Shown in pieces: positions 15,933 to 33,314 of a DNA stretch of 64,000 nucleotides. The DNA lies in contig CADAOF010000008.1 in assembly GCA_902789555.1 (NCBI GenBank), positions 1 to 64,000 of the forward strand, read 5' to 3'. The position numbers and the translations under genes are program-made. The stretch is from an uncultured Lachnospiraceae bacterium (GTDB lineage: Bacteria; Bacillota; Clostridia; Lachnospirales; Lachnospiraceae). Position 1 is the first letter of the stretch. Each line of letters starts with the position of its first letter. The notes under the pieces are model-generated. The model did no database searches, was not told where the DNA came from, and saw only the letters and a list, made by a program, of their open reading frames with translations.

Positions 15933-15995
15933 CGCTTTCGGATGCAACGTAAAATCAGGCTGCAGCAATGCTGCCGCAAACCAGCGAGGTACAGC

Positions 15996-18900
15996 ATGGA
16001 ACGAAAATACAAAGCCTTTATCAGCTATCGGCATCTGCCCCTGCAAATGGAGGTGGCCAAGGCGGTCCACCGGCGGATCGAACACTACACTGTCCCGAAA
16101 AACCTTCGAAAAAACAGTTCACGCAAAGTTGGCCTGGTTTTCCGTGATCAGGATGAGCTGCCGATCGCCGGAAGCCTGTCTGCCAATATCCAGACGGCGC
16201 TGGACAACTCGGAGTTTTTGATCGTCATCTGTACACCGGAGACATCGGGCTCGCAATGGGTGCTTCGGGAGATCAGCTATTTCCTGGAACATCACGACCA
16301 CGATCATGTACTGGCTGTGCTGGCAGACGGTGACCCGGACGAGGCATTTCCGAAGCAGATCACTGAGATTCGAAATGAAGACGGTGAAGTAACCGAGATC
16401 GTGGAACCTCTTGCCGCCAACATCGCAGCACCGACAAAAGCCAGGCGCCGCAAACTGTTTCAGACTGAATCCCTGCGCATCCTGGCGGCACTCATCGGCT
16501 GCCCTTATGACGCTTTATACCGCCGCGAGCAGCGCTACCGTTTCCGCCGCCTCGCTGTCGCCTCCGGCATCGTCCTCGGCCTCGCCGCTGCTTTTGTGGG
16601 CCTTTTGCTGAACCGCAACGCCAGGATCCAGGAGCAGCTGCGGGCCTCTCAGATCAATGAATCCAAAGCCCTGGCGGCGCTTGCCTACAACTCCTTTAAG
16701 AACGGCAATTACCGGGAAGCGCTGTCCTCTGCACTGGAAGCCCTGCCTTCCGAAGATAACGACCGTCCCTATGTGCCGGATGCGGAATATACCCTGACGC
16801 GGCAGCTGTCCGTTTACGGAAAGGACGGTATCCATTATGACCAGTCCATCGACCTGCCTTCCGCCGTATCGAAAATGCTGATGTCACACGACACTCGCTT
16901 TCTGGCAACGCTGGATGCCTACAACATGGTCCGTGTTTATGATACGTATTCCGGAAAGCTTCTTTGGGAAAAACAGCGTGAGCGGGATCTCGATTTTGAA
17001 TATGTCGATGCGCTTCAGGCTGTTTTTGCCGGCGGCGAACTGCTTGACGCGGCAACGGGAGAACGGCTCTGGAATCTGGAAACCGGCTATCACCGTTCGG
17101 CATTTTCCCGGAACGGGGCTTACTTGGCCTTAATGGTTTACACCGGAGGGAAAGACTATATTTGCATCGCGGATGCAAAGACCGGAACGACCTTGCAAAG
17201 CTGTGTTCTGGAAGGCGCTTTGTTTACTACGAATGCACTTGCCGTCAGTGACGACGGGCTGTGGGCAGCCGTGGCCACAGCTTCTTCCACACAACCGTAC
17301 GGCGTTCTGCAGGTTTACGACGTGCAGAACAAAAGACTCCTGACCGTTGACGATCAGATGACCGCCGGTGTCGACGTGGTACGCCAGCTGCTGTTTATGG
17401 ATAACGGCGATCTGATGACGGCATATGCCGGCACCGAAAAAGAACACGCCGGCATTGCCATATATGACAGCGGCAAAAACTGGCAGCGCCGGTTTGAAAC
17501 AAAGCTGGACCTGGAACAAAGTTCGGTTTATATGAACGGAAAGCTGATCATCGGCGGCAGTATCGATTTTCTTGATTATTCTGCAGACAGCATTATTTAT
17601 GGCAGCCTGAAAAAACTCTATCTGGTCGACAGGCAAAGCGGTGAGATCACCATGGATCTGCTTCTGCCGGACGTGATCTGCGGCGGTCTGCTCAACGAGA
17701 ACGACTCCTATGGCCTGATTCTGGAAAACGGGCTGATCACCGGCGGCATCTCCAGCGGGATCCTGACCAGCGACGTGAACATGTTCTACACTGATCTTGC
17801 TTATTCACTGTCCAAAGGCGTGATTGCGGGCGAATCCTACCGAAAAGGCGTATTTGCCGTCGTGAATGAAAACTATATGACAACAATCACCATCCTGCGC
17901 TGGCAGCAGGGCGAAGACATGGCAGCTGTTGTGTCAGGCGAAGCGGAAATGGATCTTGCAAAAGCCAGGATCTATGCAAGCCCTTCCGGAAAACTGATGG
18001 CGGCGATCCAATATGACTATACCGATAAAGTTCTGAACTGCATGCTGTGGCGCGAGACGGATCAGGCGCCGCAATATTACTCAGTACAATGTGACGCATC
18101 GTTTACTTATTCGCCTGCCGACATATCCCTGACCGAGGACGGAAAACTGATCGCAGAGGATGTTTATTTCGATCTCGCGGGCGGAACAGTCTCCGGTCTG
18201 ACGCCGTCCGGAAAAACGGTCAAAGAACTGGGGCTGTATTCATGGCAGCACAGCAGCTGTTCCGTCAATGACGCCCGTGACAACAGTGTGCTTTCGGCAA
18301 CACTGCTGCACACGGATGAAAAGGAACTGCCTCAGCTGAGCATCTGGAAAGACGGCAGCCAGCTGAAATCGGTCTCTTTGCCAAGTGAGTTGTATGCGCG
18401 GCAGCTCCGCTATTCGCTCTGTGCCGCAGGAAGCAATGACTGGGTGGTCCTGACGACGACCGTTCGCGAGGAAGGCGTTCCGGAAACGGTGCCGACCGCT
18501 TTTGCATACAGCATAAAGGAGGACCGTTTTACCGCACTGAAGCATCTTGCGCGGGAGTATGCTTCCGTGTGCGGCCTGGCGGAAAAAAGCCCGCTCCTTG
18601 CTGCTCTCGACGAAAACGGCAGCATCCTGCTCGTCAACATACCGGATGATACCGTAACGAAAACGCTGGAGACCGGCATGCCGTCTTCCGCAGTCGAAAA
18701 GCTGCTGTTTGCGAAAGATGACTCACTGCTGCTTGTGATGAGCGCATCCGGAGAGCTTCTGATCTATGATGTGCAGACGGGCGAACAGCTGAGCCGCGCT
18801 TATTTCGGCGACAGAAACTTCGATTTCCATAACGACGCCCGCTTTACTGCTATGCTTTCCGCAGACGGACGGCAGCTTCTGCTCATTGTCAACGACAATA

Positions 18901-19109
18901 CCTATACCGAATCGGCCATCATCTGTCTCGAAACGGAGAATTGGAACTGCGTCGGAATGCATATCAGTGCGGCGCATTATCTTCCTGACAGTAACCGCGT
19001 GATCATCAAGCCGTCACAGGACAGTGTATATTACGCGCCATTTTATTCCCGGGAGGAACTGATGGCAAAAGCCAGTGCCGTTCTGAACCGGGAGCCGCTC
19101 AAGCCTTAG
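15996..19109 (+). CDS. TIR domain - transmembrane helix - long repeat (beta-propeller-like) protein
   Basis: The 1,037-residue protein begins with a TIR-type domain (KYKAFISYRH at 4-13; FLIVICTPETSGSQWVLREI), in which Glu92 in SQWVLREIS aligns with the NADase glutamate of catalytic TIRs. A basic linker is followed by one membrane helix (about 186-206, RLAVASGIVLGLAAAFVGLLL), a short helical segment (NESKALAALAYNSFKNGNYREALSSALEALP) and about 750 residues of WD/PQQ-like beta repeats (RVYDTYSGKLLWEK, LQVYDVQNKRLLTV, LLIYDVQTGEQL). TIR inside, propeller outside is the likely topology. The ATG was chosen over an earlier one for its GAGG site and conserved N-terminus. Similar proteins occur in Clostridia without assigned function; NADase signalling or defence is possible. 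Confidence 0.85.
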   Translation: MERKYKAFISYRHLPLQMEVAKAVHRRIEHYTVPKNLRKNSSRKVGLVFRDQDELPIAGSLSANIQTALDNSEFLIVICTPETSGSQWVLREISYFLEHHDHDHVLAVLADGDPDEAFPKQITEIRNEDGEVTEIVEPLAANIAAPTKARRRKLFQTESLRILAALIGCPYDALYRREQRYRFRRLAVASGIVLGLAAAFVGLLLNRNARIQEQLRASQINESKALAALAYNSFKNGNYREALSSALEALPSEDNDRPYVPDAEYTLTRQLSVYGKDGIHYDQSIDLPSAVSKMLMSHDTRFLATLDAYNMVRVYDTYSGKLLWEKQRERDLDFEYVDALQAVFAGGELLDAATGERLWNLETGYHRSAFSRNGAYLALMVYTGGKDYICIADAKTGTTLQSCVLEGALFTTNALAVSDDGLWAAVATASSTQPYGVLQVYDVQNKRLLTVDDQMTAGVDVVRQLLFMDNGDLMTAYAGTEKEHAGIAIYDSGKNWQRRFETKLDLEQSSVYMNGKLIIGGSIDFLDYSADSIIYGSLKKLYLVDRQSGEITMDLLLPDVICGGLLNENDSYGLILENGLITGGISSGILTSDVNMFYTDLAYSLSKGVIAGESYRKGVFAVVNENYMTTITILRWQQGEDMAAVVSGEAEMDLAKARIYASPSGKLMAAIQYDYTDKVLNCMLWRETDQAPQYYSVQCDASFTYSPADISLTEDGKLIAEDVYFDLAGGTVSGLTPSGKTVKELGLYSWQHSSCSVNDARDNSVLSATLLHTDEKELPQLSIWKDGSQLKSVSLPSELYARQLRYSLCAAGSNDWVVLTTTVREEGVPETVPTAFAYSIKEDRFTALKHLAREYASVCGLAEKSPLLAALDENGSILLVNIPDDTVTKTLETGMPSSAVEKLLFAKDDSLLLVMSASGELLIYDVQTGEQLSRAYFGDRNFDFHNDARFTAMLSADGRQLLLIVNDNTYTESAIICLETENWNCVGMHISAAHYLPDSNRVIIKPSQDSVYYAPFYSREELMAKASAVLNREPLKP

Positions 19110-19258: not shown

Positions 19259-20383
19259 ATGATTATTGGCTGCCCCACAGAAATCAAGGCCCAGGAAGGC
19301 CGTGTCGGCGTAACCCCTGCGATGGTCTATGCGTTCGTGAAAGCCGGCCACCGCGTACTCATTCAGAAAGGCGCGGGACTCGGAAGCGGCTTCCCGGATG
19401 AGGAATACGCCGCGAACGGCGCGGAGCTTCTGGATACTGCGAAGGAAGTCTTCGATGCGTCCGAGATGATCATCAAGGTCAAGGAACCGCTGCCGGCCGA
19501 ATACGACCTCTTCCACGAAGGCCAGATCCTGTTCACCTATCTGCACCTTGCGCCCGATCCCGAGCAGACCGAAGCCCTGCTGAAAAAGAAGGTCATCGGC
19601 ATCGCCTATGAGACCGTGCAGCTCGCGAACGGAGCCCTGCCGCTTCTTTCCTGCATGAGCGAGATCGCCGGCCGCATGGCGGTCCAGGTGGGCGCTCACC
19701 TGCTGGAGACTCCCGTTTCCGGCGGCCGCGGCATTCTGCTTTCCGGCGTCTCGGGCGTAGAGAAAGGGCACGTGGTCATCATCGGCGGCGGCACGGTCGG
19801 TACCAGTGCCGTGAAGATCGCCATCGGCATGGGCGCGAACGTGACGGTCATCGACATGAACGCGCAGCGCCTCGCCTACCTTGACGACATCTTCGGCAGC
19901 CGCATCCAGACGCTCATGAGCAACCCGTTCAACATCGCGAAAGCCGTGGAGAGCGCGGACGTCGTCATCGGCTGCGTGCTGGTGCCCGGACGCCGGACGC
20001 CCGTCCTTGTCACTAACGAGATGGTCTCCCACATGAAGCGCGGCAGCGTCCTTATCGACGTCGCCATCGACCAGGGCGGCTCCATCGAAGCCATCGACCG
20101 CATTACGACCCACGCGGATCCCTTCTATACCAAGGAAGACGGCATCATCCGCTACTCGGTCGCGAACATGCCCGGCGCCGTGCCGAGAACCTCCACGCTG
20201 GCGCTCACGAACGTCACCCTGCCGTATGCGCTGAAGATCGCGAACCTGGGCGCAGAAGGCGCCTGCAAGGCCGATCCCGCCATCATGAAGGGCCTGAACG
20301 TCTACAAAGGCCTGCTGACCTACAAGGGCGTTGCCGACGCGCAGAACCTGCCGTACACGCCTGCGGAAGAAGCGATCGGGTAA
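19259..20383 (+). CDS. ald: Alanine dehydrogenase
   Basis: The 374-residue protein matches the family length and motifs: MIIGCPTEIKAQEGRVGVTP, IIKVKEPL (catalytic Lys), FTYLHLAPD (His), and the NAD fold VVIIGGGTVGTSAVKIAIGM. It catalyses reversible reductive amination of pyruvate to L-alanine with NADH in the cytosol, letting fermenters dispose of ammonium and reducing power. AAGGAGG lies seven bases before the ATG. It is monocistronic with a strong terminator. Confidence 0.95.
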   Translation: MIIGCPTEIKAQEGRVGVTPAMVYAFVKAGHRVLIQKGAGLGSGFPDEEYAANGAELLDTAKEVFDASEMIIKVKEPLPAEYDLFHEGQILFTYLHLAPDPEQTEALLKKKVIGIAYETVQLANGALPLLSCMSEIAGRMAVQVGAHLLETPVSGGRGILLSGVSGVEKGHVVIIGGGTVGTSAVKIAIGMGANVTVIDMNAQRLAYLDDIFGSRIQTLMSNPFNIAKAVESADVVIGCVLVPGRRTPVLVTNEMVSHMKRGSVLIDVAIDQGGSIEAIDRITTHADPFYTKEDGIIRYSVANMPGAVPRTSTLALTNVTLPYALKIANLGAEGACKADPAIMKGLNVYKGLLTYKGVADAQNLPYTPAEEAIG

Positions 20384-20400
20384 AGATCGGATATCAAAAA

Positions 20401-20436
20401 GAGCGGTCCCCGTCATATCGGGGATCGCTCTTTTTT
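20401..20436. terminator. Bidirectional terminator between ald and uxaC
   Basis: A 12-bp stem GAGCGGTCCCCG/CGGGGATCGCTC (one G-T pair) followed by six T residues; A/T-runs on the other side also serve the convergent uxaC operon. Confidence 0.9.
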
Positions 20437-20494
20437 CGTGAAAAACAGGCCGGTCATCCAGGCCGAAGGCAGAGATTTCCGCGCGGCTCTGTCG

Positions 20495-21787
20495 TCATTC
20501 CGGCAGGAAAAATTCCACTGCATTCTGATAACAGATTGCCTTCACCATTTCTCCGAGGACTTCCGTATCCGCGGGATAAAGCCCTTCTTCCGCAACTCGC
20601 CCGAGCTTCGCGCAGAGGATGCGGCGGAAATATTCGTGCCGCACGAAAGCCGTGAAACTCCGCGAATCGGTCAGCATGCCGGGGAACAGGGCAAGTGCGC
20701 CGGTCTCCATCAGTTCCTCCAGCTGTCTTTCCATGCCGCGGATGTTGTCATTGAACCACCAGGCGGCGCCGTAGCGCACCGTCGGCGCGAAATTGACGGC
20801 CATCGTTGCGAAAAGCATGTTGTCGGCCGGATTCAGATTGTAGAGGATCGTCCGGGGAAGGGCGTTTTCCCGTTCCAGATCGGCGAGGAATGCCGCGACA
20901 GCTTCCGGATCCGCCGAGCGGCCGATGCTGTCTGCGCCGGCGTCATGTCCGATCCTCCTGAGCAGGCGCGGGGAGGTATCGCGGATGGGACCGAGATGCA
21001 GCTGCATGGCCATCCCTTCCTTCGCGTAAGCCCGGCCGAGCCTGCGGAAACGTTCCGCGAAGACCGGATCGGTAAGATACGGGAAGCCTGCGAAGCCGTG
21101 GTCGGCCAGAAGACAGCCGTTTTCGCGGAAAAAGCCGAGCGCTTTTTCGAGCGCCGTATCGAGGTCCGCCGCCCCGTACTTATCCATAAGAGCGTGCGCG
21201 GCCTCCCCTTCCGGGTCAAGGATATAGCGGTCCGGGCGGAAGCAGGGACGGACCTCAAACGGAATGCTCTTATCCGCCCTGATCTTTTCGTGCCATTCGA
21301 GAGGATCCGCGGGATCGTCCGTCGTGCAGAGGATCTTCACGTTCATCTTTTTCAGCAGGCTGACGCAGTCAAATCCCTCTCCCCGCATCATTTCCTGCGT
21401 TTTCTCCCAGATCTGCCCGGCTGTTTTCGGGCTCAGCAGTTCCGTGATTTCGAAATAGCGCTGCAGTTCCAAATGCGTCCAGTGATACAGGGGATTGCCG
21501 ATCAGTTTCGGGACCGTCGCCGCCCAGGCATCGAACTTTTCACGGTCAGAGGCATCTCCCGTAATGTATTTTTCCTCCACGCCGCAGGCACGCATCGCGC
21601 GCCACTTGTAGTGGTCGCCTTCCAGCCAGAGCTCGGTCAGATTCGCGAAACGGCGGTGCTCCGCCAGTTCCCGGGAAGAAAGGTGGTTATGGTAATCGAA
21701 AACCGGTTCCTTTTCGGCATACGCATGGTAGAGCTGCCTTGCCGTCCGGGTATCGAGCAGAAAATCTTCTCCGAATAACGTACTCAT
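20495..21787 (-). CDS. uxaC: Glucuronate isomerase
   Basis: The 430-residue protein carries the UxaC signatures VFDYHNHLSSREL (metal His33 and His35), LWLEGDHYKWRAMR, CGVEEKYITGDASDREKF and NPLYHWTHLELQRYF. It isomerises D-glucuronate to D-fructuronate (and galacturonate to tagaturonate). It is slightly shorter than the usual 465-470 residues but all core motifs remain. Its ATG overlaps the stop of the LarA-like gene (ATGA), and it is the last gene of a five-gene minus-strand operon. No uxuA or KDPG aldolase gene is present nearby. Confidence 0.95.
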   Translation of the reverse strand: MSTLFGEDFLLDTRTARQLYHAYAEKEPVFDYHNHLSSRELAEHRRFANLTELWLEGDHYKWRAMRACGVEEKYITGDASDREKFDAWAATVPKLIGNPLYHWTHLELQRYFEITELLSPKTAGQIWEKTQEMMRGEGFDCVSLLKKMNVKILCTTDDPADPLEWHEKIRADKSIPFEVRPCFRPDRYILDPEGEAAHALMDKYGAADLDTALEKALGFFRENGCLLADHGFAGFPYLTDPVFAERFRRLGRAYAKEGMAMQLHLGPIRDTSPRLLRRIGHDAGADSIGRSADPEAVAAFLADLERENALPRTILYNLNPADNMLFATMAVNFAPTVRYGAAWWFNDNIRGMERQLEELMETGALALFPGMLTDSRSFTAFVRHEYFRRILCAKLGRVAEEGLYPADTEVLGEMVKAICYQNAVEFFLPE

Positions 21788-23061
21788 GCTTCAAATCTCT
21801 CCTTGTCGATCCAGAGTCCGAGGGCCGGGTTCGGGATGTAAAAAATCTCTTCTCCGTCTATCTCGTTCATGCCGGGGCGAAGCGCGGCCGGATCGTATTT
21901 CCTGCAGGTTTCCGCAAAGTCCGCAGACCTGTAGCCGACGCTTTCGATTTCCTCGCGGGAGATGTCCCGTACGGCATAGGTCACGGAAAAGCGGCCGTCC
22001 GAAGAGCCATGGATCAGGTGCGCCGCCGCGCCCATGTTTGCCCTTAGGTCCTCATTTTCGGGTGCTTCAAAGGCCTTCAGCGTCTCCAGACGCCCGCGGT
22101 AGCCGTATTTTCGGATCAGGGCATCGCACTGCGCGTCCTCGCCGAAGCGGCGGACACCCGGCGCCAGAATGATCAGTTCCCCGCCGTCAGCCATGGCCAT
22201 GCGCGTGCGGTAGACCGCCTTGTTGCCGAGCCAGGTGCTCTTAAACTCTTCCGGATCCAGATAAACGACGCACTTTTTCAGCCCGTGCTCAACGAAATCG
22301 ATGTTCTTTAGCTGCGCGAGCCTCACGGCTTCGCTCAGGCACTCCCGTCCTTCACCGATGAAGAGGCCGTGCGTGCGGATGCGGCCCTGCGGCGCCGTGG
22401 TGACCGTCAGTACCCAGAGAATGGGGCGGTCCTTCAGGAAGTGCTCCGCGCCGTAGTCGAACATGGCGCGCACCGGCGTGTGGTCGCGGCCCATCATTCT
22501 TTCCATGCCGTAGACCGCCCCGATCATGTGCGAGCGGTTGATCATCTCACTTCCGCCCGTCCCCACGAAGAGGTTCTTCGCGTGGTTCGACATGCCGATC
22601 ACTTCATGCGGAACGACCTGGCCGGGAGAGATGATCAGATCGTAGCTTTCATCCATGATCAGGCGGTTGACCTCCGCGGCCACGGGTTCCTTCCAGAGCC
22701 CGTCCGTGATCTCCGCGAGAAAATCCCCGGGGATCTCGCCGATCTTCACCACATCCCGCCGCCAGTCATGTACAAGGAAAACCTCCTGCGGAATGTCGCC
22801 GAACATGGCCAAAAGCTGCGCGGGCGTCATGGGCTCATGCGTGCCGAGTGCCGGAAGGATATCCACCTTCACGCCTTTTTCCGTGAGCGTATGGTAATAC
22901 ACGTTCGTTATGAAGCCGGCGCCGGAGTGAAAGCGCGTAAAATCCGGCGGGAGGATCAGGACCTTCCGCAGATCCCTTCCCGAAAGCGACTGAAGAAGCG
23001 CGTCCCGGATCTCTTCCTGCGTGAGGCCGTCTTCGGTCTGCGCTCTGAGAAACAGATCCAT
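21784..23061 (-). CDS. LarA-family nickel-dependent 2-hydroxyacid epimerase, probable mannonate/gluconate 2-epimerase
   Basis: The 425-residue protein belongs to the lactate racemase LarA (DUF2088) family. All residues that bind or work with the nickel-pincer nucleotide in LarA are present at the right spacing: His75 in ALGTHEPMT, His152 in VVPHEV, Lys162 ten residues later (NHAKN), His178 26 residues after His152 (NRSH). The family inverts C2 of 2-hydroxyacids, and to my knowledge includes a D-gluconate 2-epimerase. Between uxaC and a mannonate-type SDR on one side and 6-phosphogluconate dehydrogenase on the other, D-mannonate/D-gluconate interconversion is the most economical role; that is inference. 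The start at 23061 follows the SDR stop by one base. Cofactor genes larB, larC and larE are not in this window. Confidence 0.85.
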   Translation of the reverse strand: MDLFLRAQTEDGLTQEEIRDALLQSLSGRDLRKVLILPPDFTRFHSGAGFITNVYYHTLTEKGVKVDILPALGTHEPMTPAQLLAMFGDIPQEVFLVHDWRRDVVKIGEIPGDFLAEITDGLWKEPVAAEVNRLIMDESYDLIISPGQVVPHEVIGMSNHAKNLFVGTGGSEMINRSHMIGAVYGMERMMGRDHTPVRAMFDYGAEHFLKDRPILWVLTVTTAPQGRIRTHGLFIGEGRECLSEAVRLAQLKNIDFVEHGLKKCVVYLDPEEFKSTWLGNKAVYRTRMAMADGGELIILAPGVRRFGEDAQCDALIRKYGYRGRLETLKAFEAPENEDLRANMGAAAHLIHGSSDGRFSVTYAVRDISREEIESVGYRSADFAETCRKYDPAALRPGMNEIDGEEIFYIPNPALGLWIDKERFEA

Positions 23062-23062
23062 C

Positions 23063-23914
23063 TCAGACCCCCGAATAGGCGCCGAAGCCGCCGTCCACCG
23101 GCAGGACCACACCGGTAATGAAGCCGGCGCTCGCGTCGTCCAGGAGGAACAGCGCCGCAGCAATCAGCTCTTCCGGCTGGCCGAAGCGTCCCATCGGCGT
23201 GCCTGCCAGGATCTTTTTCGTCCGCTCGGTAGGCGTGCCGTCTTCATTCCAGAGGAGCTTCGCGTTCTGCTGCGCCGAGAAGAAGCCGGGAGCGATCGCG
23301 TTGCAGCGGATGCCGCTCTTCGCGAAGTGCACCGCCAGCCACTCGGTGAAATTGGAGACGCCCGATTTCGCCGCCGAATAGGCGGGGATCTTCGTGAGCG
23401 GCGTCAGTGCGTTCATGGAGCTGATGTTCAGGATCGCGCCGCTGCCCTTTTTGGCCATGTCCAGCGCGAAGGCCTGCGTCGGCAGGAGCACGCCCATGAT
23501 GTTCTGGTCGAACACTTTCGTGAAGGCGCTCTGCTTCAGGTCGAAGAAGCTCTTCTTCTCGGGATCCAGCAGCGTTTCCATGGAGAAAAATTCGTCGTCC
23601 GCCGTGGCAGAGGCGTCGTTGCCGCCTGCCCCGTTGATCAGGATGTCGCAGGGGCCAAGGGCGGAAAGTACGGCCTCATGTGCCGCCTTCACGCTCTCTT
23701 CGACCGTGCAGTCCACCTGGAAAGCCCGGGCTTCGTATCCGGCTTCGCGGATCTCCTCCGCCAGTTTTTCCGCCTTTGACAGCGTCCGGTTCAGGATGGC
23801 AACCGAAGCGCCGCACTCCGCGAGCGCCCGGCAGAATCCGCTGCAGAGGACGCCGGCGCCGCCCGTAACGACGGCAACTTTTCCCTTAAGATCAGGCCGT
23901 ACCGACAGTTTCAT
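23063..23914 (-). CDS. SDR oxidoreductase, probable D-mannonate oxidoreductase (fructuronate reductase)
   Basis: The 283-residue protein is a classical short-chain dehydrogenase: TGGAGVLCSGF cofactor loop (17-27), NGAG (94-97), Ser166, Tyr179 and Lys183 of the catalytic triad, and a C-terminal VLPVDGGFGA. Insertions such as NDASATADDEFF are typical of the SDR-type UxuB of Bacillus, which reduces D-fructuronate to D-mannonate. A GGAGG site lies seven bases before the ATG. Its position between gnd and the LarA-like gene supports work on aldonates; a gluconate 5-dehydrogenase is the main alternative. Confidence 0.82.
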   Translation of the reverse strand: MKLSVRPDLKGKVAVVTGGAGVLCSGFCRALAECGASVAILNRTLSKAEKLAEEIREAGYEARAFQVDCTVEESVKAAHEAVLSALGPCDILINGAGGNDASATADDEFFSMETLLDPEKKSFFDLKQSAFTKVFDQNIMGVLLPTQAFALDMAKKGSGAILNISSMNALTPLTKIPAYSAAKSGVSNFTEWLAVHFAKSGIRCNAIAPGFFSAQQNAKLLWNEDGTPTERTKKILAGTPMGRFGQPEELIAAALFLLDDASAGFITGVVLPVDGGFGAYSGV

Positions 23915-23928
23915 CTTTTTTCCTCCTC

Positions 23929-25380
23929 TTACGCGTTGTAGTTGCCCGCGCTGGTCGAACCGCCCTGCCCGGTCCAGTTGGTATGGAAGAAGGTCCCGCG
24001 CGGCGCGTCGGTGCGTTCATAGGTATGCGCGCCGAAGTAGTCGCGCTGCGCCTGCAGAAGGTTGGCCGGCAGGTTTTCCGTGGTATAGCCGTCGAACCAG
24101 GCGAGGGCCGAGCTGAAGGTCGGCATGGGGATGCCCGCTCTGATCCCGTAGGAAACGACCTCGCGCCAGGCGTCTTCCAGCGTCAGCATGACGCCGCGGA
24201 AGTAATCGTCCATCAGCAGGTTTTCCAGATCCGGGTTTTTGTCGTAGGCTTCCTTGATCTTGCCGAGGAAGACGCTGCGGATGATGCAGCCGCCGCGCCA
24301 CATCAGCGCGATGCCGCCGTAGTTCAGGTTCCAGCCGTAGGTTGCGGCCGCCGCACGCATCAGGCTGTAGCCCTGCGCGTAGGAAACGATCTTGCTGGCA
24401 TACAGGGCCTTGCGGATGCTTTCAATGAAGGCAGCCTTATCGCCGGTAAATGCCGGGATGCGGTGCGGATAGGCCGCCGCTGCCTTCACGCGTTCGTCCT
24501 TCATGGCGCTCAGGCATCTGGCGAAAACAGCTTCGGTGATCAGCGTGAGCGGGACCGCCTCGTCAAGCGCCGCGATGCCCGTCCACTTGCCGGTGCCCTT
24601 CTGGCCGGCGCGGTCGAGGATATGCTCCACGGTCCTCTCACCGTTTTCATCCTTATAGCCGAAAATGTCGCGGGTGATCTGGATCAGATAACTGTCAAGT
24701 TCGGTCTCGTTCCAGGCCGCAAAGATCTCATGGAGTTCTTCGGCAGAAAGGCCGAGGCCGTCCCGCATCAGCTGATAGGCTTCGCAGATCAGCTGCATGT
24801 CGCCGTACTCGATGCCGTTGTGCACCATCTTGACGAAGTGGCCGGCGCCGTTCTCCCCGACGTAATCGCAGCAGGGGGAACCGTCCTCGACCTTTGCACA
24901 GATGGTCTGCAGGATCGGCTTGACCGCTTCCCAGGCGGCGCGGGATCCTCCCGGCATCATGCTGGGGCCGTGCAGGGCGCCTTCTTCGCCGCCGGAAACA
25001 CCGCAGCCCATGTACAGGAGGCCTTTTCCCTCCACGTACTTTGCCCGGCGGATCGTATCCGGGAAATGACTGTTGCCGCCGTCGATGATGATGTCGCCGG
25101 GTTCCAGAACCGCAAGGAGCTGTTCGATGAAATCATCCACGGCCTGTCCGGCCTTGACCATCAGAAAGACCTTGCGCGGGACCGAAAGATTCTCCTTCAG
25201 TTCTTCGATGCTCCGGCAGCCGATGATGTTTTTTCCGGCCGCGCGGCCATTCACGAAGCGGTCCACCTTCTCCACGGTGCGGTTGTAGACCGCTACGATG
25301 AAGCCCTTGGACTCCATGTTCATGACCAGGTTTTCGCCCATGACGGCTAAGCCGATGAGACCGATATCTGCTTTTTTCAT
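23929..25380 (-). CDS. gnd: 6-phosphogluconate dehydrogenase, decarboxylating
   Basis: The 483-residue protein has the long-type 6PGDH layout: GLIGLAVMGENLVMNM cofactor loop, NRTVEKVDRF (Arg typical of NADP use), IIDGGNSHFPDT, GVSGGEEGA, and the catalytic GAGHFVKMVHNGIEYGDMQ with Lys and Glu; the C-terminal tail reaches into the partner active site (AHTYERTDAPRGTFFHTNW). It converts 6-phosphogluconate to ribulose 5-phosphate, CO2 and NAD(P)H. The ATG after GGAGG was chosen over an upstream frame. Its presence inside a uronate operon instead of the usual 2-keto-3-deoxygluconate genes is unusual. Confidence 0.95.
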   Translation of the reverse strand: MKKADIGLIGLAVMGENLVMNMESKGFIVAVYNRTVEKVDRFVNGRAAGKNIIGCRSIEELKENLSVPRKVFLMVKAGQAVDDFIEQLLAVLEPGDIIIDGGNSHFPDTIRRAKYVEGKGLLYMGCGVSGGEEGALHGPSMMPGGSRAAWEAVKPILQTICAKVEDGSPCCDYVGENGAGHFVKMVHNGIEYGDMQLICEAYQLMRDGLGLSAEELHEIFAAWNETELDSYLIQITRDIFGYKDENGERTVEHILDRAGQKGTGKWTGIAALDEAVPLTLITEAVFARCLSAMKDERVKAAAAYPHRIPAFTGDKAAFIESIRKALYASKIVSYAQGYSLMRAAAATYGWNLNYGGIALMWRGGCIIRSVFLGKIKEAYDKNPDLENLLMDDYFRGVMLTLEDAWREVVSYGIRAGIPMPTFSSALAWFDGYTTENLPANLLQAQRDYFGAHTYERTDAPRGTFFHTNWTGQGGSTSAGNYNA

Positions 25381-25396
25381 CTCTTTTCCTCCCCTC

Positions 25397-26476
25397 TCAG
25401 CGCTGGACTCTCGCATTTCCTGCGTAGATGTCCCAGACCTGCTTTTCGTCGGCAGGTTCTGCGTAATCGTTCAGGCTCGATGCCGCAAGCACACCGCTCG
25501 CCCAGCCGAACTGCAGGCACTTTTCCGGATCCCATCCGTTCAGGATACCGTACAGCAGGCCGCCCGAGAAACCGTCGCCGCCGCCGATACGGTCCATGAC
25601 CGGGATCGGGCGGGGTTCTTCCGTGAACCATCTGCCGTCCGCCCATAAAATCGCGCCCCAGAGGTGCTCGTTTGCCGAAACGACCTGGCGGAGCGTCGTG
25701 GCGTAAGCCTTCGCGTTCGGGTACTTCGCGCGTACCTGATCGATCATCCCCTTGAAGCTCTCGATCTTTGCGGCAAGATCCTTTCCGCCTGCTTCAGGCC
25801 CCTTGAAGCCCAGGCAGAGCTGGAAGTCTTCCTCGTTGCCTACCAGAACGTCCGCTGCCTGCGCGATGCGGTGGAATGCCTCCCGCAGTTCCTCCTCGCG
25901 GCCTTTCCAGAAGGAAGCCCGGTAGTTCAGGTCGAAACTGACCAGGGTCCCGTGTGCCTTCGCCGCTTCGACCGCCTTCAGGCAGCATTCCGTCGTCTCG
26001 GGGCTCATGGCAGCGATCAGGCCGGACAGGTGCAGGATGCCGACGCCCTCCTGCCCGAAGATCTTTTCCATGTCAAAGTCTTCCGCCGAAAGCGTTCTGC
26101 CGACCTCGCCGGCACGGTCGTTCCACACACGCGGCGCTCTCAGCCCGAAGCCGGAGTCGGCAATGTTGAACTGATGGCGGTAACCCCACGGTCCGCCCTG
26201 CGGGACTTCTTTCCCTACATAGGCAATGTTCCGCGCGCGGAGCTCGGACTTGATGAAGGCCGCAACAGGACTGCCTTCCACGAATTTCGTCATGGCGAGG
26301 CATTCCCTGCCGAGGCTCGAAGCCACGTTCAGCACGTTGGTCTCGGCGCTGGTCGCCTGCATCATGAAACACTTGCTGTTCTGGACCGCCATGCGGTCTT
26401 CGGGGGTGATACGGACACCCATGCTGGTCACGCAGGCAATGGCATGAGCAGCATCGGAACGAAGGGTAATATTCAT
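25397..26476 (-). CDS. PfkB-family sugar(-acid) kinase, first gene of the uronate operon
   Basis: The 359-residue protein is a ribokinase-fold (PfkB) kinase with the anion-hole motif IGGGDGFSGGLLYG and the central VSFDLNYRASFW found in 2-keto-3-deoxygluconate kinases. Its N-terminus departs from the common GE(I/L)L start, instead reading ITLRSDAAHAIACVTSMG. Homologs are usually annotated as KDG kinase. Beside 6-phosphogluconate dehydrogenase and without a dehydratase or aldolase, phosphorylation of gluconate to 6-phosphogluconate would complete the pathway; this is inference and KDG kinase remains the alternative. AAGGAG seven bases upstream fixes the ATG at 26476. Confidence 0.8.
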   Translation of the reverse strand: MNITLRSDAAHAIACVTSMGVRITPEDRMAVQNSKCFMMQATSAETNVLNVASSLGRECLAMTKFVEGSPVAAFIKSELRARNIAYVGKEVPQGGPWGYRHQFNIADSGFGLRAPRVWNDRAGEVGRTLSAEDFDMEKIFGQEGVGILHLSGLIAAMSPETTECCLKAVEAAKAHGTLVSFDLNYRASFWKGREEELREAFHRIAQAADVLVGNEEDFQLCLGFKGPEAGGKDLAAKIESFKGMIDQVRAKYPNAKAYATTLRQVVSANEHLWGAILWADGRWFTEEPRPIPVMDRIGGGDGFSGGLLYGILNGWDPEKCLQFGWASGVLAASSLNDYAEPADEKQVWDIYAGNARVQR

Positions 26477-26509
26477 CGGACTTCTCCTTATTCTGCTGAT
26501 TCTGTCCCC

Positions 26510-26568
26510 ATTATACACGATTGTTTTTACAATGGAATTGCATAAATCATCTTTTCACATTGCAATTC
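26510..26568. promoter_or_regulatory. Divergent control region of the uronate operon and araC-type gene
   Basis: A perfect TATAAT (26510-26515, minus strand) precedes the kinase gene. ATTGT-TTTT-ACAAT (26520-26533) sits just upstream of it, and a perfect 8-bp inverted repeat GAATTGCA (26535-26542)/TGCAATTC (26561-26568) lies between the two genes. These are good candidates for AraC-type operator sites. Confidence 0.6.
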
Positions 26569-26604
26569 TGCGCATAATTTGTTATGTTTTTTGCGGAGGT
26601 GCCT

Positions 26605-27405
26605 ATGACGAAACTTTTTTCCTTCCAGGAAGGCAGCCTGTACTGCCACAGATCCCTGGACGAGCATCCGCAGCCGGAGGCCTTTCCGATCCATGCCCAT
26701 GAAACGCCTGAGATCTACCTCTTTCTTTCCGGGCACGGTGAATACCTCGTTGAGGGCAGCCGTTATCCGCTGCGGCCGGGGGATCTCCTTCTGATGCGTC
26801 CGGCCGAGACCCACAAACTGCTCATCGAGCCGGATGAGCCCTATCTCCGCTTGGCCGTGCATTTTGCCGCCGATCAGTTCGCCGCTCTCGATCCGGAAGG
26901 GCAGCTCCTCCGGCCGTTTTTCGGCCGCGCGCTCGGGGCGCGGAACCATTATCCCGCGGCGCAGTATCCTGGACTCGCCGGGATCCTGAACGGTCTCGAT
27001 CCCGCCCCCGGGGCGGAGCGCCTGATGATCCTTTCCCGGGTCCTGGTGCTCCTTGCCGAGCTCTCCTCCCTTCACTCTGCCGATGAAAAAGAGACCGTTC
27101 CCGGAGGTCCTGCCCCGGAACTGGTCTCCTATGTGAACCGTCATCTGTTTGAACCGCTGTCGCTCGGCAGCGTCAGCCGGAGGTTTGCCTTAAGCATGTC
27201 GCAGGTCAGCCGCCTGTTCAAGGAGGCCACCGGAACGTCGCTGTGGGATTACGTCAGCATGAAGCGCCTGCTCTCTGCGCGGGCAAGGATCCTGCGGGGT
27301 GACAGTGCGCAGGCAGCCTGTCTGGCCTGCGGATTTGCCGATTACTCTGCCTTCTACCGGGCTTATAAGAAACGATTCGGCCGTGCGCCGAGCGATGACC
27401 GCTGA
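26605..27405 (+). CDS. AraC-family transcriptional regulator of the uronate operon
   Basis: The 266-residue protein has an N-terminal cupin sensor domain (HAHETPEIYLFLSGHGEYLVEG, LRPGDLLLMRPAETHKL) and a C-terminal double helix-turn-helix (LSLGSVSRRFALSMSQVSRLFKEATG, ACLACGFADYSAFYRAYKKRFG). The layout is that of sugar-responsive AraC activators. GGAGG five bases before the ATG at 26605 sets the start. It is divergent from the operon and shares the intergenic operators, so a sugar acid such as glucuronate or mannonate is the likely inducer. Confidence 0.9.
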   Translation: MTKLFSFQEGSLYCHRSLDEHPQPEAFPIHAHETPEIYLFLSGHGEYLVEGSRYPLRPGDLLLMRPAETHKLLIEPDEPYLRLAVHFAADQFAALDPEGQLLRPFFGRALGARNHYPAAQYPGLAGILNGLDPAPGAERLMILSRVLVLLAELSSLHSADEKETVPGGPAPELVSYVNRHLFEPLSLGSVSRRFALSMSQVSRLFKEATGTSLWDYVSMKRLLSARARILRGDSAQAACLACGFADYSAFYRAYKKRFGRAPSDDR

Positions 27406-29918: not shown

Positions 29919-30866
29919 ATGTTTGAATCAGTCATGGCCGGGATCCGCGATGCCGGCACCATTATCCTCCACCGGCATAACAATCCGGACGGCGACGCGC
30001 TCGGGAGCCAGATCGGCCTGTGGTCCCTGCTTAAGAACACCTTCCCGGAAAAAAAGGTGTATAAAGTCGGCGACGGCGCCGGCCGCTACGCTTTCATGAA
30101 GGAAAGCACCATGGACGAAGTGCCGGACGAAGCCTTCGAAGGCGCGCTCTGCATCATCCTGGACTGCGGGTCCGAGCATCTGGTCTCGGATAAGCGTTAT
30201 CAGAAGGCCGCGCACACGGTGCGGATCGACCACCATCTCTTCTGCGGAAAATTCTGCGATGAGGAGGTCATCGACTCCTCTTTCGAGAGCTGCTGCGGCA
30301 TGATCGCGCTGATGGCCGAGGAGCAGGGCCTTTCCCTGACGCCGCTTGCCGCGGAATCGCTTTATACGGGCATGGTCACGGACTCCGGACGCTTCCGCTT
30401 CGACAGCGTGGGTGCGCGTACGCTCCGCCTGGCCGCCGGACTCCGCGAAATCCCCTTCGATACCAACGCGATGTACAGGAACCTCTACAGTGAGGACCTT
30501 GCCGCCCTTAAGCGCCGCTCCGCCTTCATCGACCGCATTCAGCTGACGGAGCACCGGGTCGCCTGGGTCTATACGGACAAGGCCGGCGTGGAAGCCATGG
30601 GCGTTACCCCCTTTGACGTATCCCGCGGGATGGTCAACACGATGGCCGACCTTAAGGGCGTGCGCGTGTGGGTGAACTTCGCCGAAGCGCCGGAGGGCGT
30701 ATTCTGCGAACTGCGCGGCAGCGGCGTCAACGTGAACCCCATTGCCGTGAGATACGGCGGCGGCGGACATGCGGCAGCCTCAGGCGCGACCGTTGCCGAC
30801 CGTAAAACCGCCATGGCCATGCTGGCCGATCTCGATACTCTGGCAAAGGAGACGGAAGAACAATGA
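29919..30866 (+). CDS. DHH/DHHA1 phosphoesterase, NrnA-like (first paralog)
   Basis: The 315-residue protein has HNNPDGDALGSQ and RIDHHLF metal motifs of the DHH domain and the DHHA1 motif RYGGGGHAAASGA. NrnA-type enzymes degrade nanoRNA and pAp; some relatives hydrolyse cyclic dinucleotide products such as pApA. AAGGAG lies seven bases before the ATG. It overlaps the next gene, a diverged paralog, by four bases. Confidence 0.9.
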   Translation: MFESVMAGIRDAGTIILHRHNNPDGDALGSQIGLWSLLKNTFPEKKVYKVGDGAGRYAFMKESTMDEVPDEAFEGALCIILDCGSEHLVSDKRYQKAAHTVRIDHHLFCGKFCDEEVIDSSFESCCGMIALMAEEQGLSLTPLAAESLYTGMVTDSGRFRFDSVGARTLRLAAGLREIPFDTNAMYRNLYSEDLAALKRRSAFIDRIQLTEHRVAWVYTDKAGVEAMGVTPFDVSRGMVNTMADLKGVRVWVNFAEAPEGVFCELRGSGVNVNPIAVRYGGGGHAAASGATVADRKTAMAMLADLDTLAKETEEQ

Positions 30867-31840
30867 CGAAAGAACTGGCACTTGCCGTTTTGGAAAAGAT
30901 AGAGGCCTACGACAGGATCATCCTGACGAGGCACCTCAGGCCGGACGGGGACGCCGTCGGCTCCACCAAGGGTCTCCAGGCGATACTCAAGGCGAGCTTC
31001 CCGGAAAAGGAAGTGCTGTGCATCAACGAAGACTATGCGGATCAGACCGCCTTCCTGGGTCCTGAGGACGCGCAGCTTCCCGAAGAGGAATACAGGAATG
31101 CCCTCGTCATCGTGCTGGACAGCGCGGAAAAGGGCCGCGTTTCCAATAAGAACATCGGTGCAGCGAAGGAGCTCATCTGCTTCGACCATCACGTGGAGGA
31201 AACGCCCTACGGCGACATTTCCGTGGTGGAGCCGGAGCTTTCGAGCGCCTGCGAGCTGGTCGTCAACTGGTACCGCCTGCTCGAGGACCGCCTGGTGCTG
31301 ACCAAAGAGGCAGCCACTTATCTGTATGCCGGCATGGTCACGGATTCGGGTCGTTTCCGCTTCGATTCGACGACCGGCGAGACCCTGCGCGACGCCGCTC
31401 TCCTGCTCGATCAGGGCGTTGAGACCGAACCGCTCTACGCGAACCTCTACATGGAGGATTTCGACATCCTGAAATATCAGGCCTACGCCTACGGGCAGAT
31501 GAAGCGCACCGAAAACGGCGTCGCCTATCTCTTCGTTGACAAGGCCATGAAGGAGCAGTTCCACCTGACGCCCGAGCAGGCCTCCAACTCCGTCAATCTG
31601 ATGGATACCATCAAGGGAAGCCTCATTTGGCTGGCTTTCATCCAGTATGACAAGTTTATCCGGGTAAGGCTGCGCTCCCGCTTCGTGCCGATCCGCGAAC
31701 TCGCGGCCGAGTATAACGGCGGCGGCCATGACATGGCTGCCGGCGCGACCATCTACAGCGAGGAAGACATGCGGGAAATGATCCGCAAGGCGGATGCGAT
31801 CCTGAAGGAATACAAGGAGACGCACACGGGCTGGCTGTGA
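30863..31840 (+). CDS. DHH/DHHA1 phosphoesterase (second paralog)
   Basis: The 325-residue protein repeats the family motifs (TRHLRPDGDAVGST, CFDHHVEE, EYNGGGHDMAAGA) with clear differences from its neighbour: the DHHA1 box has Asp-Met in place of Ala-Ala. Start overlaps the upstream stop (ATGA). Two adjacent paralogs suggest divided substrates, for example nanoRNA versus pAp or cyclic dinucleotide products; not decidable here. Confidence 0.9.
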   Translation: MTKELALAVLEKIEAYDRIILTRHLRPDGDAVGSTKGLQAILKASFPEKEVLCINEDYADQTAFLGPEDAQLPEEEYRNALVIVLDSAEKGRVSNKNIGAAKELICFDHHVEETPYGDISVVEPELSSACELVVNWYRLLEDRLVLTKEAATYLYAGMVTDSGRFRFDSTTGETLRDAALLLDQGVETEPLYANLYMEDFDILKYQAYAYGQMKRTENGVAYLFVDKAMKEQFHLTPEQASNSVNLMDTIKGSLIWLAFIQYDKFIRVRLRSRFVPIRELAAEYNGGGHDMAAGATIYSEEDMREMIRKADAILKEYKETHTGWL

Positions 31841-31922: not shown

Positions 31923-33314
31923 TTATTCGCCCTTGACGACGGCGTCGAGCGTGCAGCCCTTGCCGAATTCGCGGGTGTCCTTATAGCGGGTCAGGGTACC
32001 GGTCACGGTGACGGTGTCGCCGACAGCCAGATCCTTCGCGCCTTCGCCGGACAGGCGGTAGGCTTCCATCGGATATTCCTCAAGGCCAGCCACCACGAAG
32101 TCAACGGTGATGTTCTGGTACTCATCGCTCCACGCGGACGGGATATTAATGATGGTACCGGTCAGGGTCTTCAGGCCTTCGAAGGATTCGCCGTCTTCCA
32201 GCTGATACGCGTCGAGAACGGTCTTGACGTCCGCAAGCGCTTCCACAGGGATCAGCTTGCAGCCTTTGTCAAATTCGATGGTGCCCTTGTAGTTCTTGAT
32301 GGTACCGAAGACGGCGATTTCATCGCCGACAGCCAGTTTTTCCGCGCCTTCGCCGGACAGGCGGTAGCACTGGATGGGCTTGTCGTCCAGACCGGCTACG
32401 ACCATGTTCACGGTGATGTTCTTGTATTCGTCGCTCCAGGCGGTCGGGATCTCAGTGATCGTTCCGCACAGCACGGTCGGGGCGTTCTGAGCCTGGCCGT
32501 CTTCCAGCGTATAGGCTTCTTCCACGGTCTTCGCAAGGTTCAGGATCTCGCCCATGCCGATCAGCTGGCAGCCCTTGTCAAATTCGATGGTGCCCTTGTA
32601 ATTCTTGATAACGCCTTCCACGGTGATCCTGTCGCCGACAGCCAGCTTGTCTGCGCCTTCGCCGGACAGGCGGTAGCACTGGATGGGCTTTTCCGTCAGA
32701 CCGTCCACGATCATATTCACGGTGATGTTCTTGTATTCGTCGCTCCAGGCGGTCGGGATCTCAGAGATCACGCCGCAAAGACGGAAGGCATCCTTGGTCG
32801 CTTCGCCGTCTTCCAGGCCGTAGGCCATGTTGACGATCTGGTCATAACGGGTGATGACCACGCCCTTCGGCAGCATGTGCGGGAATTCCACGCTCAGCTT
32901 GTTGCCGGCGGCGTCTTCCACGGTACCGGTCAGGATGTACTCGGTATCGGCTGCCGCGGACTTGTTCACGACCACGGTCCAAGTCTTGCCGTCTTCGGCC
33001 TTGGTCGGGACGGCGTCTTCGGTGTTGGTTTCCCAGGTGACGGGATATTCGTCGGTCCCGATCCTGACCACGCCGCTTAAGACGTAGTCATCGGCGGTCT
33101 TCACCGGGGCGTCCTTGTAGATCGCCCGCAGATATTTCTGAGCAGCGGTCACGCCTTCCAGCGGATCAGCCGTGGTAGGGGCCTGTGTCGGTGCCGCCGT
33201 GGGCGCTTCCGTGGTCACGGGCGCTTCGGTGGTTGACGGCGCCGGCTGCTCACCGCAGGCGGCGAGGCTAAGGCACATTACCGCAGCCATCAGAAATGCA
33301 ATAATTTTCTTCAT
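31923..33314 (-). CDS. Lipoprotein with three ~100-residue OB-like repeats
   Basis: The 463-residue protein has a lipobox (LSLAAC, Cys20), a Thr/Ala/Pro linker (23-50), a unique domain (about 51-165) and three repeats from residue 167, each LEDG...CG.I.EIPTAWSDEYKNITVN...YRLSGEGA..LAVGD.I.V.G.IKNYKGTIEFDKGC. The repeat looks like the OB-fold/BOF-type domains of extracellular nucleases such as YhcR. It is the last gene of a seven-gene minus-strand operon headed by an RDD protein and a CUT1 transporter. Binding of nucleic acid or oligosaccharide at the cell surface is possible; function unknown. Confidence 0.8.
   Translation of the reverse strand: MKKIIAFLMAAVMCLSLAACGEQPAPSTTEAPVTTEAPTAAPTQAPTTADPLEGVTAAQKYLRAIYKDAPVKTADDYVLSGVVRIGTDEYPVTWETNTEDAVPTKAEDGKTWTVVVNKSAAADTEYILTGTVEDAAGNKLSVEFPHMLPKGVVITRYDQIVNMAYGLEDGEATKDAFRLCGVISEIPTAWSDEYKNITVNMIVDGLTEKPIQCYRLSGEGADKLAVGDRITVEGVIKNYKGTIEFDKGCQLIGMGEILNLAKTVEEAYTLEDGQAQNAPTVLCGTITEIPTAWSDEYKNITVNMVVAGLDDKPIQCYRLSGEGAEKLAVGDEIAVFGTIKNYKGTIEFDKGCKLIPVEALADVKTVLDAYQLEDGESFEGLKTLTGTIINIPSAWSDEYQNITVDFVVAGLEEYPMEAYRLSGEGAKDLAVGDTVTVTGTLTRYKDTREFGKGCTLDAVVKGE
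31926..32816 (-). repeat. Three ~300-bp direct repeats within the OB-like lipoprotein gene
   Basis: The first two repeats are nearly identical at DNA level around AIPTAWSDEYKN- and YKGTIEFDKGC-coding parts (e.g. 32410-32455 and 32710-32755); the third is diverged. Recent internal duplication or gene conversion is likely. Confidence 0.8.

Follow-up and report, generated by a model that had tools for sequence, protein, structure and literature searches.

How D-glucuronate could be catabolized in a genome that seems to lack the genes of the classical Entner-Doudoroff-type branch is the question raised by a five-gene operon of an uncultured Lachnospiraceae bacterium (assembly GCA_902789555.1). 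The operon lies on the minus strand at positions 20495–26476 of the analysed stretch, i.e. the first 64,000 nucleotides of contig CADAOF010000008.1 (hereafter the window). It encodes, from 26476 down to 20495, a PfkB-family kinase, the 6-phosphogluconate dehydrogenase Gnd, a short-chain dehydrogenase/reductase (SDR), a homologue of LarA and the glucuronate isomerase UxaC. We propose that this operon probably degrades D-glucuronate through the pentose phosphate pathway, with epimerization of D-mannonate to D-gluconate as the linking step; relatives that also encode UxaE would probably degrade D-galacturonate as well.

The operon and the proposed route

The first gene (25397–26476, 359 residues) encodes the kinase, a predicted hexonate (gluconate) kinase recognized by Pfam (PF00294, 71.7 bits). 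It is followed by the gene for Gnd, a decarboxylating NADP-type enzyme (23929–25380, 483 residues; TIGR00873, 747 bits against a cut-off of 427; PF00393 and PF03446), and by that for an SDR-type D-mannonate oxidoreductase, or fructuronate reductase (23063–23914, 283 residues; NF006132, 402 bits, cut-off 281). The LarA homologue (21784–23061, 425 residues) belongs to group 18 of this superfamily and passes the NCBIfam model for a nickel-dependent putative hexonate epimerase (NF052594, 619 bits, cut-off 500); it is a predicted nickel-pincer D-mannonate/D-gluconate 2-epimerase. UxaC (20495–21787, 430 residues) completes the run (NF002794, 475 bits, cut-off 387; PF02614, 519 bits). All five genes named in the original prediction are present at these positions and pass their family models, except that the kinase scores above no NCBIfam cut-off. 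Gene starts were set by comparison with those of relatives, and on the same grounds a TTG start of the LarA homologue at 23163 was rejected for the ATG at 23061. The genes are separated by only 16, 14 and 1 nucleotides, and the last two overlap by 4 nucleotides, the start of uxaC lying on the stop of the LarA-homologue gene. The run is packed like one operon, and we infer that its genes are co-transcribed.

UxaC would isomerize D-glucuronate to D-fructuronate, which the SDR would reduce to D-mannonate. The group-18 LarA homologue, equipped with a nickel-pincer nucleotide made by LarB, LarC and LarE encoded elsewhere, would then invert C2 and convert D-mannonate to D-gluconate. Phosphorylation by the PfkB kinase would yield 6-phosphogluconate, and its decarboxylation by Gnd ribulose 5-phosphate, so that the route would replace the UxuA-KdgK-KdgA branch. 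These catalytic activities, the substrate specificities and the order of epimerization and phosphorylation are what we infer from protein sequences and gene context.

In net terms, the route converts glucuronate and ATP to ribulose 5-phosphate and CO2 and is redox-neutral. The original prediction had expected a yield of NAD(P)H, which has to be withdrawn, since the reduction of fructuronate consumes one reducing equivalent and Gnd returns one. Gnd of the window has the family motifs conserved and carries NRT at residues 33–35, a cofactor-site motif shared by 46 of 50 relatives. NRT is also present in the SDR of the window (residues 42–44), as in 11 of 35 relatives, and the first of these positions is Asp in 18 of the 35. 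Asp at that position of an SDR favours NADH; by this rule, relatives with Asp would in effect shift reducing power from NADH to NADPH.

Genes of the classical routes

The claim that mannonate dehydratase and 2-keto-3-deoxy-6-phosphogluconate (KDPG) aldolase are absent was borne out at genome level. The genome that carries the operon (96.55% complete) gave no match to UxuA (PF03786) or to the KDPG-aldolase family (PF01081), in searches that covered these two families and not enolase-type mannonate dehydratases or EDD/IlvD-type dehydratases, and no match to glucose-6-phosphate dehydrogenase (G6PD; PF02781). The same searches found matches in 5, 8 and 9 of 14 control genomes, respectively. Given the absence of UxuA, KDPG-aldolase and G6PD matches and the presence of larB, larC and larE (see below), a sequence of mannonate epimerization, phosphorylation and Gnd fits the gene content best.

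Among 43 genomes with a locus containing both a group-18 LarA homologue (LarA18) and Gnd, UxaC was found in 40, UxuA in 6, a KDPG-aldolase-family member in 19 and LarC in 27, presence being a match with E ≤ 0.001 (the LarC count includes one match, in G319, below the curated cut-off). They were compared with 27 other genomes, namely 13 with LarA18 at a locus without Gnd and 14 family controls without LarA18 above cut-off; 13 of these 27 carry UxaC. Among UxaC-positive genomes, UxuA occurs in 5 of the 40 with a LarA18 and Gnd locus versus 10 of the 13 others (Fisher p 3e-5, phylogeny ignored).

No G6PD match was found in any of the 70 genomes, the 14 family controls included. The idea that lack of G6PD is a trait special to operon carriers was therefore rejected, and it is a background trait. 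In none of the 70 was a supply of Gnd substrate from glucose 6-phosphate detected, and with no G6PD family match a role of Gnd in the ordinary oxidative pentose phosphate pathway was rejected. The proposed route would explain what purpose Gnd serves in the examined genomes in which no G6PD was found.

The group-18 LarA homologue

In the grouping of LarA homologues by Desguin et al. (2020), members of groups 19 and 20 were reported to have D-gluconate 2-epimerase activity, and a hexonate substrate was no more than hypothesized for group 18 (PMC7583248). An alignment of the window protein with 89 relatives is characterized by nine residues, D40, R43, H75, H152, E153, K162, H178, W277 and K281, that are invariant in all 90 sequences (numbering of the 425-residue protein; alignment numbers are higher by 34). 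Mapped by residue spacing on the LarA reference positions D72, R75, H108, H174, K184, H200 and K298, they would represent catalytic and cofactor-binding residues together with the signature positions of groups 18–20. This signature, a Glu-Val loop and a Trp, is present in the window protein. The four pincer-site residues of the original prediction, His75, His152, Lys162 and His178, are correctly numbered with the start at 23061 and are among the nine invariant residues. Among solved structures, the closest is 4nar (116 bits), which bears the deposited name of a putative uronate isomerase and which we take to be the Thermotoga epimerase.

A search of the genome for the cofactor genes, suggested at the outset as a check, located larB, larC and larE together at a single locus (L125), each above cut-off, adjoining a CbiM-like gene that scores below the cut-offs of its models. 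In one relative, larB, larC and larE lie alongside LarA18, Gnd and PfkB (L043).

Two further LarA homologues of the same genome were observed. The first (L114, contig C15:10001–29000) also belongs to group 18 and is 43% identical to that of the window; its neighbours encode a DapA-family aldolase and a 3-hydroxyacyl-CoA-dehydrogenase-like protein and, judged by eye, a tripartite tricarboxylate transporter and thiolases, a gene set that suggests another sugar-acid pathway. The second (L115:3664–9957, contig C4) is of the malate-racemase type (LarAH6 family) and is accompanied by a type II glyceraldehyde-3-phosphate dehydrogenase, a phosphoglycerate kinase homologue and a phosphoglycerate mutase, after which the gene run shows inositol-catabolism-like genes (by eye).

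A separate PfkB kinase subfamily

The kinase could be read differently, as a 2-keto-3-deoxygluconate (KDG) kinase whose operon feeds an Entner-Doudoroff-type branch, the LarA homologue and Gnd having side activities. The NCBIfam model it matches best describes a KDPG aldolase/sugar kinase fusion, of which it matches the kinase part (179 bits against a cut-off of 700); models of KDG kinases follow (at best 92 bits, cut-off 440), and the nearest solved structures are 4gm6 and the KDG kinase 2afb. The genome nevertheless gave no UxuA or KDPG-aldolase-family match, and the kinase gene co-occurs with those for LarA18 and Gnd. Moreover, the GGAEAN motif of 2afb reads TSAETN in the window kinase, where T42, S43, A44 and E45 are invariant in 34 sequences (that of the window and 33 of 41 listed kinases). 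The missed model cut-offs, the TSAETN motif and the separate subfamily led us to reject an ordinary KDG kinase, and we regard this reading as highly improbable.

The subfamily is sharply bounded: 37 of 391 genomes of the class contain a match of at least 495 bits (that of G617 carries an internal stop), one second copy scores 398 bits, and the other matches listed score at most 231 bits. LarA18 is found in 60 of the 391 genomes, in 58 of them above cut-off, and it accompanies the PfkB subfamily in 36 of the 37 PfkB genomes (Fisher p 1e-33, phylogeny ignored). In 20 of these 36 genomes, including G470 (L222), the two genes are linked, and in 13 a clear distance separates them on the chromosome; contig ends obscure the situation in G372, G391 and G697. 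An automatic count placed PfkB and LarA18 farther than 10 kb from each other in 17 of the 36, and in these 17 Gnd is still near LarA18 in 9 and the SDR in 12. The only PfkB genome without LarA18 is G474, which is 88% complete; there PfkB adjoins Gnd.

Kinase replacements and natural fusions

LarA18 occurs without the PfkB subfamily in 24 genomes, of which 22 were examined (G588 and G607 were left out). Their loci contain an FGGY kinase with Gnd (5), an FGGY kinase without Gnd (2), a pyrophosphate-dependent phosphofructokinase (PPi-PFK)-like gene (5), Gnd without a recognized kinase (6), or neither near LarA (4). L190, L194, L201, L203 and L225 are the five loci where Gnd, LarA18 and the FGGY kinase share one gene run; three of these kinases were scanned, and their best model is that of gluconokinase (240–245 bits, far below the cut-off of 649).

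As a separate observation, the PPi-PFK-like gene and a gene for a HAD protein stand with Gnd, SDR and LarA at L192, L197, L198, L200 and L202 (e.g. L197:676–1956 and L192:7472–8758), all in genomes without PfkB. Three of these genes were scanned (L192, L197 and L202), and each passes the cut-off of a PPi-PFK subfamily. The gene may simply be glycolytic, or it may encode an unusual hexonate kinase in place of PfkB.

Marine Gammaproteobacteria provided a different replacement. Saccharobesus litoralis encodes a fusion of a GntK-type gluconokinase (residues 3–157, 185 bits, cut-off 114) with LarA18 (residues 171–581, 619 bits), in the vicinity of larE, larB, an annotated tagaturonate epimerase, gnd and uxaC. 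Catenovulum adriaticum has a separate GntK/IdnK-type gluconokinase beside LarA18, and uxaC, larB, larC and a TRAP transporter gene belong to the same run. A gluconokinase of the GntK/IdnK type thus appears to take the place of PfkB in these bacteria, and the GntK-LarA18 fusion favours free gluconate as the substrate of the kinase step. A second fusion (L205:6643–9345), known from one assembly of the same class, joins Gnd (residues 4–479) to LarA18 (residues 490–899) in a single frame of 900 residues and preserves their active-site residues. No report of a GntK-LarA18 or Gnd-LarA18 fusion was found in the literature searched.

These fusions also bear on the order of the two middle steps. PfkB might phosphorylate D-mannonate, and 6-phosphomannonate might then be epimerized to 6-phosphogluconate by the LarA homologue, as described for extracts of Lactobacillus suebicus, in which mannonate is phosphorylated first (PMC6978723). 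The Gnd-LarA18 fusion would then link consecutive steps, and the near confinement of PfkB to LarA18 genomes points the same way, as a plain gluconate kinase would be useful without an epimerase too. This order is opposed by the pairing of LarA18 with GntK, a gluconokinase family, as a fusion in Saccharobesus and as separate neighbouring genes in Catenovulum; Escherichia coli GntK is quoted as unable to use mannonate (PMC6978723), and GntE2 of Thermotoga maritima works on free mannonate (PMC7583248). It is further opposed by the adjacency of PfkB and Gnd in G474 and by two LarA18 relatives (L120 and L121, 46% and 47% identical) that follow UxuA and a UxuB-like gene, with no recognized kinase or Gnd in the run. 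On balance we hold phosphorylation before epimerization to be unlikely, though it deserves to be taken seriously. Its wider form would be that this operon type holds the missing L. suebicus genes, PfkB being the D-mannonate kinase and LarA18 a nickel-pincer phospho-aldonate epimerase, a pair that, in Clostridia of gut and rumen without detected G6PD, would replace the uronate branch of the Entner-Doudoroff type; this we consider rather doubtful. Phosphorylated aldonates were not named as a class of LarA substrates in the literature searched, in which the terms 'mannonate kinase' and '6-phosphomannonate' occurred only in PMC6978723.

The original route from glucuronate via gluconate to ribulose 5-phosphate has withstood those of its checks that sequence allows, and the link between epimerase, kinase and Gnd is supported by this comparative evidence, with phosphorylation first as the rival for the order of steps.

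Gene neighbourhoods in relatives

Relatives' loci are the best 80 of at least 546 from a search of genome contigs, with gene calling by a codon-score script; 46 have full flanks, and the 34 incomplete loci were tallied apart. Within 6 kb of LarA18 and on the same strand, the 46 full-flank loci contain Gnd (37), Gnd together with PfkB (35), SDR (22), UxaC (18) and UxuA (1); UxaC is the sole partner in one locus. The incomplete loci contain Gnd in 20 cases and PfkB in 10. Together with eight loci from family genomes, the set comprises 88 loci, of which 7 contain UxaE and 7 a mannitol-dehydrogenase-type, fructuronate-reductase-like gene, a representative of which scores below the cut-offs of its models. 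One run, L118, combines UxaE, Gnd, PfkB, LarA and the mannitol-dehydrogenase-type reductase; UxuA is encoded as well in the genome concerned (G233), which gave no UxaC match.

A gene for a Cof-type HAD phosphatase was observed near LarA18 in 20 of the 46 full-flank loci; examples near Gnd and the LarA homologue are L097:6279–7115 and L036:7159–7998. Its role may be one of repair, acting on a hexonate that was wrongly phosphorylated.

KDPG-aldolase-family genes within LarA18 gene runs were seen at L098:4025–6221, L119:10474–13501 and L229:7507–12236, with 2-hydroxyacid-dehydrogenase-like genes and a kinase, of the FGGY type in L098 and L119 and a distant PfkB in L229. These runs perhaps represent a different aldonate pathway.

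The LarA homologue of the window might also act on another aldonate pair (e.g. altronate/allonate or gulonate/idonate) and serve a different sugar acid. Groups 18–20 have been suggested to use hexonates generally, and the native substrate of group 19 is uncertain (PMC7583248); furthermore, the paralogue at L114 stands in a different gene set, and 8 of the 46 full-flank LarA18 loci have no partner gene at all. Mannonate and gluconate are, on the other side, the only pair of C2 epimers that joins fructuronate reductase to Gnd, and the gluconokinase and Gnd fusions point to gluconate, so that a different substrate appears very unlikely to us.

Several observations weigh against the proposed mannonate-to-gluconate route as a whole, in addition to the kinase matches, the L. 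suebicus extract activities, the loci without partner genes and the scope of the family searches given above. A KDPG-aldolase-family gene is kept in 19 of the 43 genomes with a LarA18 and Gnd locus, and its presence in the LarA18 runs of L098, L119 and L229 suggests that group 18 may be involved in more than one pathway. Sixteen of the 43 genomes, including one that is 97% complete (G220), gave no LarC match, even though the lysine of the nickel pincer is invariant across the 90-sequence alignment; LarC was missed in 1 of the 13 genomes with LarA18 at a locus without Gnd and in 2 of the 14 controls. Missing contigs, a diverged LarC or cofactor obtained from elsewhere could explain these gaps. 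LarA18 scores above cut-off in only 9 of 299 genomes of the family, and the sole genome of the same genus (G238) is without it. Being the best 80 of at least 546, the relatives' loci are close to that of the window and share ancestry. No assay of any group-18 LarA protein or of this PfkB subfamily was found in the literature searched. Finally, T. maritima, for which the same route has been proposed, showed no growth with gluconate, glucuronate or galacturonate (PMC3750489), and strain CCB-QB4, which has the GntK-LarA18 fusion, did not grow on saturated galacturonate (PMC7953866).

Regulation and other features of the window

An AraC-family regulator (PF12833 and PF02311) is encoded divergently from the operon on the plus strand (26584–27405) and is likely its controller. 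Twelve of the 46 full-flank loci have an AraC gene of the same cluster in the vicinity of LarA18. A promoter scan of 20380–26600 found none. Just 3' of uxaC, a weak terminator-like hairpin with a T-rich tail could be identified on the minus strand (20407–20424); such sites are almost as common in shuffled sequence (8 observed in the stretch versus 6.1 expected), so that only its position favours this hairpin.

Elsewhere in the window, the following were seen by eye: a protein of 1055 residues (15942–19109) with an apparent TIR-type domain, then a membrane segment and beta-propeller-like repeats, two similar neighbouring proteins resembling tandem DHH-family phosphoesterases (29919–31840), and a lipoprotein-like protein with three internal repeats (31923–33314).

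Comparison with known systems

The route itself is not new, and the operon is a variant of a proposed Thermotoga-type route. Rodionova et al. (2012) proposed the same route for T. maritima (cited in PMC6978723 and PMC3750489), in which the UxaR-regulated locus aldH-pelB-gnd-uxaRED-gntEK would lead into the pentose phosphate pathway as well (PMC3750489, PMC6978723, PMC7953866); most genes of that locus were 2- to 5-fold up-regulated on pectin (PMC3750489). Epimerization of D-mannonate by GntE2, of group 20, was demonstrated in 2020 (PMC7583248), and a further GntE, LarAH15, was described in 2024 (PMC11770544). What the window shares with T. maritima is a gene run in which Gnd, a fructuronate reductase, a LarA-family epimerase and a sugar-acid kinase with a predicted substrate stand together.

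There are also clear differences. UxaC is encoded inside the operon here, unlike in the T. maritima locus, and the kinase is a PfkB. GntK of T. maritima is presumably of the FGGY type, and its uxaD presumably encodes an SDR. The T. maritima GntE belongs to group 20 (PMC7583248), and the LarA homologue of the window to group 18. T. maritima also has a kdgA-kdgK-uxuB-uxuA operon (PMC3750489), whereas the genome studied here gave no UxuA or KDPG-aldolase match. With GntE1 and GntE2 (LarAH19 and LarAH20) the window protein shares the nickel-pincer and catalytic residues, the Glu-Val loop and the Trp signature, but group 18 is separate, with its hexonate substrate hypothesized only (PMC7583248).

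New are the evidence on the substrate of group 18, the PfkB subfamily at the kinase step, the two fusions and the genome without UxuA and KDPG-aldolase matches. A specific substrate is thereby proposed for group-18 nickel-pincer enzymes, and a PfkB subfamily without curated function is named as a likely gluconate (or mannonate) kinase. If the proposal is true, nickel supply may affect the use of uronates, and hence of plant cell walls, by gut and rumen Clostridia, and the redox-neutral route would be of interest for pectin-rich feedstocks.

The kinase resembles KdgK (2afb, 1v19) in belonging to the PfkB family with recognizable sequence similarity, but it falls in a separate subfamily tied to LarA18 and Gnd, in a genome without a KDPG-aldolase match. 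For CCB-QB4, the main text of the published description lists uxaC and a tagaturonate epimerase on a plasmid and nowhere mentions a gluconokinase or racemase (PMC7953866). The galacturonate pathway of L. suebicus, for which Valk et al. (2020) reported mannonate kinase and 6-phosphomannonate 2-epimerase in cell extracts without assigned genes (PMC6978723), likewise joins an upper isomerase pathway to 6-phosphogluconate and Gnd and is redox-neutral to ribulose 5-phosphate. It differs in that phosphorylation precedes epimerization and no genes are assigned, whereas for the operon described here a candidate gene set is known from sequence.

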